A stretch of DNA of 64,000 nt from Nakamurella sp. PAMC28650. Lineage in GTDB: Bacteria > Actinomycetota > Actinomycetes > Mycobacteriales > Nakamurellaceae. This document shows, piece by piece, positions 7,139 to 60,853 of this stretch (positions are counted from its first letter, which is position 1; every line of letters begins with the position of its first letter). The notes beneath the pieces are model-generated. The model was not told the DNA's origin, did not search any database, and worked only from the letters and a program-made list of their open reading frames with translations. Position numbers and translations under genes: made by a program. Where the stretch lies: positions 62,001 to 126,000 of the forward strand of contig NZ_CP060298.1 of NCBI RefSeq assembly GCF_014303395.1, written 5' to 3'.

Positions 7139-7150
7139 CCCCCGCCAGTC

Positions 7151-7205
7151 CCGTCCCGTCCCGTCCCGTCCCGTCCCGTCCCGTCCCGTCCCGTCCCGTC
7201 CCGTC
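7151..7205. repeat. Eleven perfect tandem CCGTC pentamers
   Basis: The array begins 12 bp after the phoU stop and runs without interruption into the left palindrome of the adjacent nuclease element. A partial unit (GTC) precedes it. Confidence 0.95.
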
Positions 7206-7267
7206 ATCGACCGGAATGAGAACCCGCGTCATCAGGGCCCGAACTGCGGATCCCATTCCGGTCGATG
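7205..7267. repeat. Palindrome A, left copy (63 bp)
   Basis: The arms at 7205-7218 and 7254-7267 (CATCGACCGGAATG) are a perfect 14-bp inverted repeat, with partial pairing continuing inward. The copy is 63 bp and shares both arms and the internal GGGCCCG-A-TGCGGATC block with the copy at 8354-8416, in the same orientation. It lies between convergent phoU and the nuclease gene, so it could also terminate both transcripts. Confidence 0.9.
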
Positions 7268-7291: not shown

Positions 7292-8257
7292 TCATGCTGA
7301 CGCCGAACGGCGGAGATCCAGGAACCGTGCGATGTCCTCGACCAGGCGGGGCCGCTCGTTCCAGACCATGTGACCGGTCACCCCGAGCATCAGCCAGCCG
7401 GCGCCGGCCAAGGCGTTGTACCGCTGGCGGTCCCTGGTCAGCGCTGCACCCGTGTGGAACTCGACGCCGTCGTACTCACAGCCCACCTTCTGCTCGGGCC
7501 AGCCCAGATCTACCCAGAATTCACCGACGGGCGTCCGCACCGGAATCTGCGTGGTCGGGGTCGGGAAGCCGGCGTCCAGGCACACCCAACGCAGCCACGA
7601 TTCCCCGGGGGAGGCCGCACCGGGGTCCGTCAGCGGAACCAGCCGACGCATCAGCCTCACCCCGCGAATGCTCATCCGCGCCGCCAGCAGGAGCAGGTCG
7701 GCCGATGTCGCGCCGGTGTGCCGGACGGCGGCATCCAGCACCGCCAGAGATTTGGCCGGATGAGGTTGGCGGGCGGCGATCCGAAGGGCAGTCTCGGTCA
7801 GATCGGTGACGGCCTGCCCGGCCACCCGTTGCAACGGCCGCAGCAGTTCCGGACGGTGGTGCACCAATCCATGTCGATGGCTCGGCCAGTCCTGCACGGC
7901 GAGGATGTGCGTGTCGGGGTCGCGGGCGACGTCGAACCCATGGAGCTCGGCCGCCGTGTCGAGGCAGGCCACCACCGGGCGACGGAGCGACAACGCTGCA
8001 GCCGCCAGCCTGGTGCCGGCACCGATGCGATGCTGCTCGGCATTGCGGAATCCGTGCGCCTCGAACAGCGGTGCGACGGTCGGACTGCTCAGCTCCGGCA
8101 CGACGAAAGTGTTGTACCACAGGCGGTTCAGGCCTCCCTCGCGCACCAGGGACAGAAGCCTGCGTTCGCCCAGGTGATCCGCGATCTGAGACCCGAGCAG
8201 GGCGCCGGACTGCTCCCGGGCGAGCGTCCAGAGCGCGGGCGGCAACGGTTTGATCAT
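7292..8257 (-). CDS. AbiEi-like N-terminal domain / DUF559 (Vsr-like) nuclease-domain protein A
   Basis: The protein is 321 residues. The N-terminal third resembles the winged-helix region found on actinobacterial proteins named after AbiEi antitoxins (about 1-60, ADHLGERRLLSLVREGGL). The middle is helical (EALRIAA, LDAAV). The C-terminal domain (about 205-315) has PD-(D/E)XK/Vsr features: an acidic ESWLR helix, then FWVDLGWPEQKVGCEYDG with the D...E-x-D arrangement, then FHTG and a conserved RDRQRYNAL helix. DNA cleavage is inferred from the family, and the substrate is unknown. The ATG at 8257 is chosen because homology begins there; longer in-frame starts exist. The same palindrome sits 25 bp after the stop and 97 bp before the start. 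A diverged relative with its own palindromes is at 20564-21538. Confidence 0.75.
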   Translation of the reverse strand: MIKPLPPALWTLAREQSGALLGSQIADHLGERRLLSLVREGGLNRLWYNTFVVPELSSPTVAPLFEAHGFRNAEQHRIGAGTRLAAAALSLRRPVVACLDTAAELHGFDVARDPDTHILAVQDWPSHRHGLVHHRPELLRPLQRVAGQAVTDLTETALRIAARQPHPAKSLAVLDAAVRHTGATSADLLLLAARMSIRGVRLMRRLVPLTDPGAASPGESWLRWVCLDAGFPTPTTQIPVRTPVGEFWVDLGWPEQKVGCEYDGVEFHTGAALTRDRQRYNALAGAGWLMLGVTGHMVWNERPRLVEDIARFLDLRRSASA

Positions 8258-8353
8258 CCCGACAGCCTCGTGACCAGGCACGCACCCGGCCAGCCCCGCC
8301 ACCAGAATGTGGATGGAATCAGCCCATGGGGATAACTCTCCCCTCCCGCCACG

Positions 8354-8416
8354 CATCGACCGGAATGAGATCCCTACTTCGAGGGGCCCGGAATGCGGAT
8401 CTCATTCCGGTCGACG
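8354..8416. repeat. Palindrome A, right copy (63 bp)
   Basis: 20-bp arms (8354-8373 and 8397-8416; left arm CATCGACCGGAATGAGATCC) match at 19 of 20 positions around a 23-nt loop. It is the better-preserved copy of the palindrome at 7205-7267. It lies 59 bp past the pstB stop and probably acts as the pst operon terminator. Confidence 0.92.
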
Positions 8417-20535: not shown

Positions 20536-20579
20536 ACGTCCTGCAGAGTGACGCCAATAGGCGTCACTGTGCAGGACGC
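20536..20579. repeat. Palindrome B, left copy (44 bp)
   Basis: 20-nt arms 20536-20555 and 20560-20579 pair at 18 of 20 positions around the loop AATA. It shares the outer sequence ACGTCCTGCA-AGTGA with the copy at 21605-21652. The stop codon and last four codons of the nuclease gene lie in its right arm. Confidence 0.9.
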
Positions 20580-21538
20580 AACGGGGTTCCCGACCAACCG
20601 GCCGACACCAGAACGCGGCGCAGCTGGTCCATGAACTCCTCGCCCCGCACGCGCAACCCGATCACCGGGACCCGCAGCACCCGATCGGCTCCGATCGTCA
20701 CCTCGTTCTGCCGGAGCGCATCGGCAATCCAGTTGTCCGGCTCGAGGTGATGAATCCCGTCGATCTCGACGACGACCCGATACCGATCGAACCGGCAATC
20801 CAGGTACGCCCGCCCGCCCGGGACGACCCGGACCGCCTGACGGTCGGGGGTGGGCAGTCCCGCCCGACGGCACATCCGGGCGAAGTCCAACTCCCCCAGT
20901 GATTCCGCGCCGATCAGCACATCCCGCGTGACGGAACGGATCAGACTGCGACGCCGATCCCGCCGCACCGATTCGACCGCATCCCACAGCGGTCCCGGTG
21001 TCGTCAGGCGCTGCTGCACGCACATCGCGATGACGAGCGCCGCCTGCCGGTCTGATCGAGCCCAGAGGGCGCCCCGCACCGCGGCGATCTCGGCCAGCAC
21101 CCTCGGAGGGCCGCCGGTGGCCAGATCGCCCGGATGACGACGCCGCGTCTCGTGGACGACGACCCCCGGCGACCTCCGGTAACGGGTGCCCTTGGACACG
21201 GACACGTGCACGACGTCCTCGAAGTGGCGCAGACCCGCCGCCACCAGGGCCGTCACACCGTCCAGGGCAGCATCGGCACCGACTTCCAGAACGGCTCGCC
21301 ACCACAGACCGAGCTCCGACCGGTCACCGATTCCGATCGTCTGACGACCGAGTCGTTGCCAGCGGCCCGACCTGAGCTCGGCCGTCACCTCCGCGCGGGT
21401 CAGACCGGCCCGATAGAGCTGGCGCCGCGAAATCGATCCACCCTGCAGCCGGGCGATCCGCGCGGCGAACAGTCTGCGGCGGACCCGGAAGAGCGAGCTT
21501 GCCTCCCGAGTCCACGGCAGCAGCACCGGGGTTCCCAT
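20564..21538 (-). CDS. AbiEi-like N-terminal domain / DUF559 (Vsr-like) nuclease-domain protein B
   Basis: 324-residue relative of the protein at 7292-8257. The N-terminal helix-turn-helix region (about 25-65) reads ISRRQLYRAGLTRAEVTAEL, then WQRLGRQTIGI. The centre is alpha-helical (VLAEIAAVRGALWARSDRQA). The C-terminal PD-(D/E)XK core (about 225-300) has GELDFARMCRRAGLPTPDRQ, then RAYLDCRFDRYRVVVEIDGIHH with the D...E-x-D arrangement, and RVPVIGLRV. Nuclease action is inferred. Its last codons (R-P-A-Q-stop) are encoded by the left palindrome, so the reading frame has grown into or been captured by the repeat. Confidence 0.75.
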   Translation of the reverse strand: MGTPVLLPWTREASSLFRVRRRLFAARIARLQGGSISRRQLYRAGLTRAEVTAELRSGRWQRLGRQTIGIGDRSELGLWWRAVLEVGADAALDGVTALVAAGLRHFEDVVHVSVSKGTRYRRSPGVVVHETRRRHPGDLATGGPPRVLAEIAAVRGALWARSDRQAALVIAMCVQQRLTTPGPLWDAVESVRRDRRRSLIRSVTRDVLIGAESLGELDFARMCRRAGLPTPDRQAVRVVPGGRAYLDCRFDRYRVVVEIDGIHHLEPDNWIADALRQNEVTIGADRVLRVPVIGLRVRGEEFMDQLRRVLVSAGWSGTPLRPAQ

Positions 21539-21600
21539 TCGATGATGATCGCCAATCCGGCGATTTCAGGTCGGCGCTGTCCACAATCCCCGCGCTCGCC

Positions 21601-22650
21601 TCACTGACGTCCTGCAAAGTGATGGCTATCGCCATCGCTTTGCAGGACGTCAGCGGGTTTGCGTGCCTCGCCGAACGCGACGCGAATGCGCTGCTCCGTC
21701 TCCTCGTCCACCGGCGCGCCATCGGCCAGATGCTCGAGGCCCAGGAGCACCGACCCGACGATCGGCGTGATCCGGGGAATCGTCACCCTGGTGTGCGGCG
21801 CCGATCGGCCCAACGCCGCAAGGATCGGATCCAGCAGCACCGGTTCCTGCGCGGCCAGCACACCACCCCCGAGCACCACCTCGGTTTCGGTATCGAGCAG
21901 GCCGAGTCGGGTGAGAGCGGCCATCACGAAGGCGATCACCTCGTCGGCCTGTCGCCGCACCACCGACAACGCGACCTCGTCACCGGCGGACGCCACCGCG
22001 AACAGGACCGGGACCAGTTCGTGCAGTCGGTGCCCGTCGATCTCACCCAGGTGCAGAGCCTCGGCAACGGCAGCGGTGCTCGGATACCCGAAGTGTGCGG
22101 GCAACGCTGTCGACAGCTCCGTCCGTGCTCCCCGCCCGTCCTCGTCACGCATGGCGAAGAACATCGCCTGCGTTCCCAGCGTTCCGCCGCCACCCCAGTC
22201 ACCGGTGAAGGTGCCCAACGCGAGGAACCTGACCACTGACCCGTCCGGCGCGACGCCGACGCAGTTCATCCCGGCGCCGCAGACCACCGTCACCGCCGCC
22301 CGAGCGCGAGTTCCACTGCGCAGCAACGCGAACACGTCGTTCGTGACCTCGACGCGCTCGGCCAACTGCTGGCCGGTGAACCACGTGGCGAACTCCTCGT
22401 CCTCGCGAGGGAGGTCGGAGTTGGCCAGGCAGGCGGAGAGGAGCGTCGCCCGCTGCAGGCCGGCCTCGACCAGGACCGACCTGGCCAGCTCGCCGAGTCC
22501 GGCCAGCGCCTCGTCCTTGCCCAGGTGTGGACGAAATCCGCGACCGCGGCCCCTGGCCAGCACCTCGCCGGCCGAGGTGACGACGGCGGCATCGGTCTTG
22601 CTGTTCCCGCCGTCCAGAGCCAGCACGGTCCGGCCCGTATCGAATGTCAT
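21601..22650 (-). CDS. BadF/BadG-type ATPase domain kinase (N-acetylglucosamine kinase-like)
   Basis: 349-residue ASKHA-fold protein. The phosphate-1 loop is VLALDGGNSKTDAAVV, phosphate-2/connect motifs include VCGAGMNCVGVAPDG, GDWGGGGTLG carries a sugar-kinase glycine loop, and adenosine motif VVLGGGVLAAQEP is near the C-terminus. Sequence features fit the eukaryotic-type GlcNAc kinase/BadF family; the sugar is not proven. The ATG at 22650 has AAGGGG upstream and overlaps the IclR stop by 4 bp. The final 17 or so codons (DVLQSDGDSHHFAGRQ) are supplied by palindrome B and do not look like native protein. Confidence 0.82.
   Translation of the reverse strand: MTFDTGRTVLALDGGNSKTDAAVVTSAGEVLARGRGRGFRPHLGKDEALAGLGELARSVLVEAGLQRATLLSACLANSDLPREDEEFATWFTGQQLAERVEVTNDVFALLRSGTRARAAVTVVCGAGMNCVGVAPDGSVVRFLALGTFTGDWGGGGTLGTQAMFFAMRDEDGRGARTELSTALPAHFGYPSTAAVAEALHLGEIDGHRLHELVPVLFAVASAGDEVALSVVRRQADEVIAFVMAALTRLGLLDTETEVVLGGGVLAAQEPVLLDPILAALGRSAPHTRVTIPRITPIVGSVLLGLEHLADGAPVDEETEQRIRVAFGEARKPADVLQSDGDSHHFAGRQ
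21605..21652. repeat. Palindrome B, right copy (48 bp)
   Basis: 22-nt arms 21605-21626 and 21631-21652 match at 21 of 22 positions around the loop TATC. The right copy lies wholly inside the last codons of the kinase gene that ends at 21601. Confidence 0.92.
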
Positions 22651-34468: not shown

Positions 34469-34538
34469 CCCGGCGCGTCGCAAACTGCCCGTTCACCGCC
34501 GAAAGAGCGGCTGAACGGGCAGTTTGGGACGCGCCGGG
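34469..34538. repeat. Long palindrome at a convergent junction (27-bp arms)
   Basis: Arms 34469-34495 and 34512-34538 match at 26 of 27 positions, and the 16-nt loop contains a further CCGC/GCGG pair. It starts 2 bp past the ATPase stop and lies 82 bp before the pgm stop. It can end both transcripts. Size and arm quality resemble palindromes A and B, but no gene is attached. Confidence 0.88.
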
Positions 34539-55266: not shown

Positions 55267-55315
55267 AGCGGGAAATCCCTCTTCCAACACCTCGTGGACA
55301 GGACACAGCAGCGTC

Positions 55316-55515
55316 ATGGCCGGTCTCCTGGCTCGCAGACCCCGGACGAGGACCGGGGCTGGGTTCGCCTTCCCGGACCGTGAGATCCAGTGGCGAGAAG
55401 AACCCAACTTGCTTCTGCTGACAGTGGCGAGGGCCGCTCCGGTTTCACACCGGATTCCCGAACACCGTGACGGGGAAACCGTAGTCGGCTCCTCCGGGCT
55501 GCGGCAAGCCACCCC
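55316..55515 (-). ncRNA. Cobalamin (B12) riboswitch
   Basis: On the minus strand the core reads GGAATCCGGTGTGAAACCGG then AGCGGCCCTCGCCACTGT (55421-55460 plus strand), and the B12 box GCCAGGAGACCGGCC lies at 55318-55332. Arrangement and spacing are those of cobalamin riboswitches. It lies 50 nt before the NiCoT start and should lower expression when adenosylcobalamin is abundant. Outer boundaries are approximate. Confidence 0.92.
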
Positions 55516-60799: not shown

Positions 60800-60853
60800 C
60801 GTTACTGCAGTCGTTCGGTGCCTGTACTCGGGCACCGAACTACTGCAGTAACG
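60800..60853. repeat. Long palindrome at a convergent junction (23-bp arms)
   Basis: Arms 60800-60822 and 60831-60853 match at 22 of 23 positions around an 8-nt loop. It lies between the DUF3073 gene and the convergent membrane-protein gene and includes the dyad ACTGCAGT in each arm. Confidence 0.88.

Follow-up and report, generated by a model that had tools for sequence, protein, structure and literature searches.

A gene that we call W2 lies between two palindromes of one repeat family (family A) in a 64,000-nucleotide stretch of the genome of Nakamurella sp. PAMC28650 (contig NZ_CP060298.1, positions 62,001 to 126,000), hereafter called the window. It codes for a protein with an AbiEi-like DNA-binding part and a DUF559/Vsr-like, putative nuclease domain. 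The features of the locus are, in window coordinates:

20564..21538, minus strand: W2, gene for the two-domain AbiEi-like and DUF559/Vsr-like protein of 324 amino acids (open reading frame, PADLOC match, paralog identity, invariant residues)
20975..21481, minus strand: AbiEi-like DNA-binding part of W2, residues 20-188 (match to AbiEi antitoxins, PADLOC PDLC02228, E 2.7e-7; PF13338 AbiEi_4 in 6/10 sequences of alignment A3)
20633..20920, minus strand: nuclease-like domain of W2, about residues 207-302, with borders that are approximate because the match is given in profile positions (profile A1 matches; VsrA residue order)
20537..20578, no strand: family-A palindrome at the 3' end of W2, containing the stop codon (palindrome detection)
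21604..21653, no strand: family-A palindrome, 65 nt upstream of the W2 start codon (palindrome detection)

The left palindrome has 19-bp arms that are 95% complementary around the loop AATA, and the right one has 23-bp arms that are 96% complementary around the loop TATC. Both have the outer arm ACGTCCTGCANAGTGA in common, as a first-pass annotation of the sequence had noticed, and the stop codon of W2 (complement of 20564-20566) lies within the left one. The same annotation had described an element of equal architecture with different arms at 7.2-8.4 kb; both elements are real and their arms are unrelated.

The name DUF559, given to W2 in the first-pass annotation, is supported by its homologs. 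Since W2 alone gave no Pfam match at E ≤ 0.01, the label depends on the homolog family. PF04480 (DUF559) was matched by 5/10 sequences of alignment A1 and 7/10 of alignment A3, and PF13338 by 2/10 sequences of A1 (the two alignments have 10 sequences each with W2 in both, 19 sequences combined); three PF04480-positive paralogs in the same genome are 29% identical to W2. The Pfam matches among the aligned family members were DUF559, MTES_1575, AbiEi_4 and AbiEi_1 only. Over the C-terminal part, the A1 profile matched PDB entry 3hrl, an 'endonuclease-like protein' (E 1e-5), and PvuRts1I (0.003). Residues E216, D247, E258-x-D260-G, H264, D273, R276 and R289 are invariant in the aligned sequences, and E216, D247, E258, D260, H264 and D273 are so in both A1 and A3. 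Five of these (E216, D247, D260, H264 and D273) correspond by order to E, D, D, H, D in VsrA, a DUF559 protein of Caulobacter where these form the predicted active site, with equal residue spacing in two of the four steps (13 and 4) and different spacing in the other two (31 vs 29 and 9 vs 5 in W2 and VsrA, respectively) (PMC12907096, available part). VsrA was proposed to be a mismatch-repair-type endonuclease, and an AbiEi part is not mentioned in the available part of that paper (PMC12907096). Given that the residues are invariant in 19 sequences and follow the order of the VsrA active site, we read this as a predicted nuclease centre that the W2 family keeps.

Homologs of W2 were found in 34/61 genomes, the host included, and ten named ones come from records of Nocardioides, Terrabacter, Intrasporangium and others, which include metagenome assemblies. 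The flanks of 93 homologous loci were compared with those of 208 control genes of 250-430 amino acids (95 from relatives and 113 from stretches of the host's own genome away from the first ones), which is the check that the first-pass annotation had suggested for DUF559 genes. A palindrome pair with shared arms was present at 39/93 homologous loci versus 0/208 control genes (Fisher's exact test, p = 1.4e-23). A hairpin of any kind was seen at one of the gene ends in 82/93 versus 31/208. Because no control gene had a shared-arm pair at the equal cut-off, chance is very unlikely as the source of the bracketing of W2 and of W1, the gene of the 7.2-8.4 kb element, in agreement with the earlier judgement. 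The association had been expected for DUF559 genes generally; it holds for long proteins with AbiEi-like and nuclease parts and not for short stand-alone DUF559 genes, which differ from the W2 type in that 8/9 loci were without a palindrome pair. The sequence of the sole pair among the nine is presumably the ParB site parS.

The 93 loci are the best matches of each homolog search and not all matches. This number does not include W1, four Nocardioides loci that were already counted under different ids, one locus whose gene runs off the contig (L167), two loci that were too short, four gene fragments and 29 phylum-wide loci (20 long and 9 short). The shared-arm cut-off of 9 was set while viewing the first loci and was then used for the later sets and for all 208 controls. 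The flank windows varied slightly, one set of 30 loci giving 17 pairs in one count and 16 in the 93-locus count. When controls were taken from own-genome stretches chosen around family-A copies, 5/198 genes had a pair and three of these were genes under study; at random places in own-genome stretches chosen around palindromes the value was 0.15% of 4000 places. In many loci the hairpins of the homologs are located about 30-150 nt before the start codon; on the other side, the distance to the stop codon is mostly no more than about 50 nt in the first relatives. The rule used also misses cases, as locus L158 was scored bare yet is flanked by CGTCAT palindromes on either side. At three loci of one genus (L088, L089 and L090 in genomes G030, G042 and G059) the homologs contain in-frame TGA stops and are still bracketed by shared palindromes of the type GATCTTGGARG..; the genes seem to have decayed while the palindromes stayed intact.

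Every lineage of the protein goes with a palindrome of its own. Copies of it bracket the gene, and further copies are dispersed in the genome, for the most part at other gene ends; neither the lineage specificity nor the dispersal had been noticed in the first-pass annotation. The exact family-A pattern, in which T or G was allowed at one place and both versions were covered, occurred in 2/61 genomes, namely the host (26 copies) and G054 (6 copies), with 0 for the backward control. G054 has the closest W2 ortholog among the 61 genomes (58%, the next 45%), though it is of another family, and the exact pattern was found in 0/16 same-genus genomes. A Nocardioides palindrome (GTCATNCG..) had 5, 19, 2 and 7 copies in four Nocardioides genomes and none in the five others searched, and the Terrabacter/Intrasporangium palindrome (GGTTCGATGT..) had 4, 14 and 1 copies in its three genomes and none in the six others, so that both were confined to the genomes with the matching gene type (4/9 and 3/9). 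For 82 loci, the arms matched in 2.4% of the pairs with less than 30% protein identity or no alignment, in 4-6% at 30-50%, 30% at 50-60%, 53% at 60-75% and 91% above 75%, a trend that was as high in 0/999 permutations.

The number of copies was also compared among 147 Nocardioides-group genomes. The gene was found at E ≤ 1e-30 in 68 of them and not in the other 79; the first look at this set scored at most 15 candidates per genome. The median was 9 palindrome copies with the gene (no genome with zero) versus 1 without (26/79 with zero), and at least 4 copies were present in 59/68 versus 17/79 genomes (Fisher's exact test, p = 5.7e-16, where the p-value overstates independence because the Nocardioides-group genomes are related).

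Palindromes that are private to DUF559-type genes were ruled out, since copies are dispersed across the genomes carrying them. The family-A arm pattern with at most two mismatches gave 102 matches in the host genome, against 9 for the pattern read backwards, mostly as opposite-strand pairs 28 nt apart. From own-genome stretches around the arm matches 46 family-A palindromes were collected, and the core was exactly 40 bp in 43/46. Their inner stem varies yet pairs: 92.6% of the cells were paired versus 83.5 when shuffled, 68 cells were changed on both sides versus 31.3 when shuffled, with no slid register coming near, and the covariation was 0.231 versus 0.093 (standard deviation 0.011; 0/500 shuffles as high). 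The seven outer pairs are invariant by construction because the set was chosen by its 7-bp ends. Of the 46 copies 23 were located in tandem gaps, 14 in convergent and 3 in divergent gaps and 6 inside called frames, while the background gaps of at least 60 bp were 187 tandem, 57 convergent and 70 divergent; the gene caller behind the copy positions, the controls and the stop-codon counts was a crude one based on open frames and GC content at third positions. The stop codon falls within a family-A copy in seven called genes, one of which is W2. Of these, 6/7 (again with W2) have a palindrome-encoded RPA[QKE] at their end, immediately followed by the stop in 5/6. Either palindromes landed in gene ends or genes came to read into palindromes.

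Ordinary transcription terminators or RNA hairpins, repeated by chance and unlinked to the protein, would fit both the covarying stems and the position close to gene ends (23 tandem and 14 convergent gaps among the 46 copies). Such hairpins would leave unexplained that the arm sequence tracks the protein lineage across genomes, that the copy number tracks the presence of the gene, that 0/208 control genes have a shared pair and that the spacing of neighbouring copies follows the DNA helix (see below). The hairpins of the window also gave no Rfam match at gathering score. We therefore regard this explanation as extremely unlikely.

Presence and absence of palindromes could be compared at orthologous sites of three Nocardioides species. 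One palindrome site was filled in two of the species and missing in one, and two sites were filled in one species only. One Nocardioides array had seven copies versus one intact and one degenerate copy in the comparison, and a further site (L204) was alignable on one side only. A rival explanation is a selfish unit of palindrome, gene and palindrome that moves in a homing or transposon-like manner and leaves solitary palindromes as recombination scars, like solo long terminal repeats. The two-copy bracketing, the many solitary copies and the genomes that hold palindromes without a cognate gene speak for such a unit. Nevertheless, only one gene was found per palindrome family in the host genome, the gene is syntenic in three Nocardioides species, and the other close family-A pairs in the host genome enclose no W2 homolog. 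A search for plasmid carriage of W2-type genes gave no plasmid match, and the search for phage carriage gave one unannotated phage-labelled record with 50% identity. A moving unit of this kind is thus very unlikely in our judgement.

Palindromes that lie close to each other are spaced mostly by 50-53, 62-65, 73-75 or 83-84 bp, with single cases of 61, 90 and 97 bp, and the spacers vary in sequence from locus to locus. The distances include five, six, seven and eight helical turns, and a constant array period of 63 bp was ruled out by the several spacings that differ by helical turns. With one value for each of 36 arrays, of which 10 came from among the matches listed in the 147-genome survey and two (L163 and L216) are one place counted twice, a 10.5-bp repeat fits with R = 0.86 and an approximate p = 2.5e-12, which is too small because some arrays are related by descent. 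The value 10.5 bp is that of the helix; 10 to 11 bp fit equally well and 13 bp far less (p = 2e-4). Proteins sitting next to each other on duplex DNA would be expected to favour copies on the same face of the helix, and a role of the palindromes as RNA does not predict helical phasing. Tandem palindromes at helical-turn distances (about 53, 63, 73 and 84 bp) are seen at L199:2797-3215 (N. pini, G206:C1:1140797-1141214), and also at L158, L162, L253, L255 and L261-L265 and in genomes G266 and G291.

This phasing fits binding with no need for cutting, and the main rival explanation is accordingly a many-site DNA-binding regulator. W2 would then be an AbiEi-type autoregulator with many operators, its nuclease half would be structural or active elsewhere, and the palindromes (operator, chromosome-organising or 3'-end regulatory sites) would be spread by ordinary recombination or selection and not by the protein. 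AbiEi and Rv2827c are autoregulators that bind 23-bp inverted repeats in the promoters of their genes (PMC7319586, available part). In many of our loci the 5' palindrome lies about 30-150 nt before the start codon; the dispersed copies, too, are mainly at gene ends. A regulator does not account for nuclease residues that are invariant in 19 aligned sequences, nor for a 3' palindrome that overlaps the stop codon in several loci, which is unneeded for an operator. In addition, the copies are rare between divergent genes, the expected place for operators (3/40 intergenic copies vs 70/314 background gaps). We consider this explanation rather unlikely.

Besides W2, the host genome is known to have five more AbiEi plus nuclease genes, W1 and four others, and every one of the six has a palindrome of a different multi-copy family (A to F) at one or both ends. 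Since W1 was missed by both genome searches, further such genes are possible. The features of these families in the window are:

7292..8356, minus strand: W1, second gene of the W2 kind, between phoU-like and pstB-like genes (open reading frame; weak Pfam matches)
7205..7267, no strand: family-B palindrome on the 3' side of W1 (palindrome detection)
8356..8414, no strand: family-B palindrome on the 5' side of W1 (palindrome detection)
60800..60853, no strand: family-D palindrome, a dispersed solitary copy (gene partner at genome 737486-738379)

The matches of W1 to PF18741 MTES_1575 (E 1.9e-5) and PF04480 (E 0.0014) are both below the curated cut-offs, and its start codon, which overlaps the family-B palindrome, is uncertain. 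The names phoU-like and pstB-like come from reading the translations, with no search behind them. A tandem 5-bp repeat (CCCGT) at 7140-7205 of the window lies directly before the family-B palindrome, just past the phoU-like gene.

In families A, B and C palindromes are present on both sides of the gene, and in family F the second palindrome was recovered at genome position 131788 as a degenerate copy (0/200 shuffles as good). A 1.22-Mb genome sample, which is enriched for family A, contained 44, 6, 4, 2, 3 and 6 copies of families A to F, respectively, where one B copy and one F copy are only near the cut-off. The reversed-reference control gave 0 for all six families, and each family had at least one copy away from its gene.

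We find it probable that W2 and its palindromes are a case of a two-part system, in which an AbiEi-like/Vsr-PD-(D/E)XK-type protein has a cognate dispersed palindrome, similar to the repetitive extragenic palindromes (REPs) and their REP-associated tyrosine transposases (RAYTs). The bracketing, the dispersal, the cognate specificity, the kept catalytic residues, the presence and absence between species, the helical phasing and the supply of stop codons are the observed parts of it, and we propose that the enzyme recognises its own palindrome and probably nicks or cuts it. A palindrome of 40-48 bp has the right size for two monomers, given that AbiEi and Rv2827c monomers bind 23-bp inverted repeats. 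Two protein monomers might thus bind the two half-sites of about 20 bp in one palindrome, and the paired nuclease domains, both on one site, could nick or cut it. Repair from another copy would then bring palindromes into new places or multiply them in tandem, and fold-back copying during the repair would keep the two arms matched. The flanking copies may have two roles, marking where the unit ends and serving as an operator through which the protein regulates its own gene.

A more far-reaching version of this proposal is that AbiEi-Vsr fusions are dedicated palindrome-processing enzymes, which spread and amplify their own palindromes of 40-48 bp and maintain the symmetry of these. They would form a second, independently evolved partnership of enzyme and repeat besides REP/RAYT, relying on a nuclease of the restriction type and on double-strand repair where REP/RAYT uses single-strand transposition. 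The arrays would be in helical phase, and there would be many orthogonal actinobacterial pairs, six of them in one genome. We judge this version to be slightly less likely than not.

Several observations weigh against the two-part system. Binding, cleavage and mobilisation by the W2-type protein are inferred. Under the rule used, 11/93 homologous loci were without a hairpin and 54/93 without a pair, and the association was weaker for the 20 long DUF559 genes of the phylum-wide set (2 with pairs, 10 with any hairpin). Families D and E have a palindrome at the 5' side only, the second copy having been searched for and not recovered. The empty sites in Nocardioides are not clean, since the alleles differ by more than the palindrome and do not give exact joints. 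No target-site duplication was evident at the 46 family-A sites, where no offset was prominent (best z 1.3), and none was clear at 14 solitary Nocardioides sites (best z 2.5). An offset of 23 bp (z 9.5) was rejected as a target-site duplication, as it arises only when array palindromes are included.

The p-values, moreover, ignore shared ancestry, and of the 79 genomes in which the gene was not found at E ≤ 1e-30, 17 nevertheless have 4 or more palindromes. When eight of these 17 exceptions were rechecked at E ≤ 1e-5, seven had only diverged homologs and one (G250) had none; no homolog examined in them had this palindrome at its ends, although one locus (L306) does have a copy at another place. 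Loss of the gene, failure to find it, or retention of palindromes in its absence would each account for the exceptions. Genomes G317, G300, G247, G268, G250, G215, G294 and G216 have 10 to 71 CGTCAT palindromes each and no close cognate gene was found in them; these palindromes are possible orphan repeats after gene loss.

The closest working analogue of the proposed two-part system is REP/RAYT (TnpA-REP), in which the gene is likewise flanked by a dispersed palindromic repeat with tens of extragenic copies, mostly downstream of genes (PMC3733652, available part). The RAYT enzyme is a Y1 HUH tyrosine transposase, whereas the W2 type combines an AbiEi-like part with a Vsr-like nuclease; the REP repeat is asymmetric with an unpaired GTAG/CGTC tag, whereas the W2-type repeat is a symmetric palindrome of about 40-48 bp without the tag. 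Because the enzyme is unrelated and the repeats have no tag, the W2 system is not a member of REP/RAYT. The CGTC-tagged REPs without a known transposase (Di Nocera 2013) are dispersed palindromes as well, and several palindromes found here start with (A/G)CGTC. The CGTC REPs have stems of 8-9 bp and an unpaired tag, compared with symmetric stems of about 18-20 bp in the W2 type, and actinobacteria are not among the phyla listed for them in the available part of the survey (PMC3733652).

With the type IV antitoxins AbiEi and Rv2827c, W2 has the AbiEi-like N-terminal part in common. It differs from them in its C-terminal nuclease-like domain, in putative sites that are genome-wide, and in that no AbiEii toxin was among the neighbours scanned, a scan that covered the W2 locus only and gave, with Pfam, a rhodanese, a THAP4-like heme-binding protein and a BadF-type ATPase. 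The EDxHD homing endonuclease I-Bth0305I has a Vsr-like fold. In this enzyme, as in the W2 type, a DNA-binding part is tethered to a type II restriction enzyme-like core, and it dimerises on a target of nearly 60 bp (PMC3943268, available part). The W2 type differs in that no intron, intein or single-site homing was seen and in its many palindromic copies per genome.

A link between gene and palindrome was not described in the titles and opening abstract lines of the papers listed from the open-access literature searched, most subscription papers being outside this search. Our results suggest that an actinobacterial gene family and a lineage-specific palindrome form a previously undescribed partnership of enzyme and repeated DNA. 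What we rate as new is the combination of a dispersed palindrome with a dedicated partner gene of a different enzyme class than in REP/RAYT, which would deserve a class of its own if cutting is true. It gives a large 'domain of unknown function' protein family a concrete partner that can be tested, namely the particular DNA sequence next to each gene, and offers candidates for the enzyme that acts with one class of palindromes dispersed in bacterial genomes. The survey of 2013 left the CGTC REPs without a transposase, though those repeats differ from the W2-type ones. If the pairs are orthogonal, they would provide a naturally occurring series of DNA binders or nucleases with long sites, and a new example of coevolution between enzyme and target.

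Two further observations were made outside these loci. Long hairpins with common CCCGGCGCG ends and CTGCCC inner arms are present at 34469-34538 of the window and at genome position 463435, and are perhaps one more dispersed family, with no known gene. A cobalamin riboswitch (Rfam RF00174, 96.5 bits) is located on the minus strand of the window at 55301-55484.

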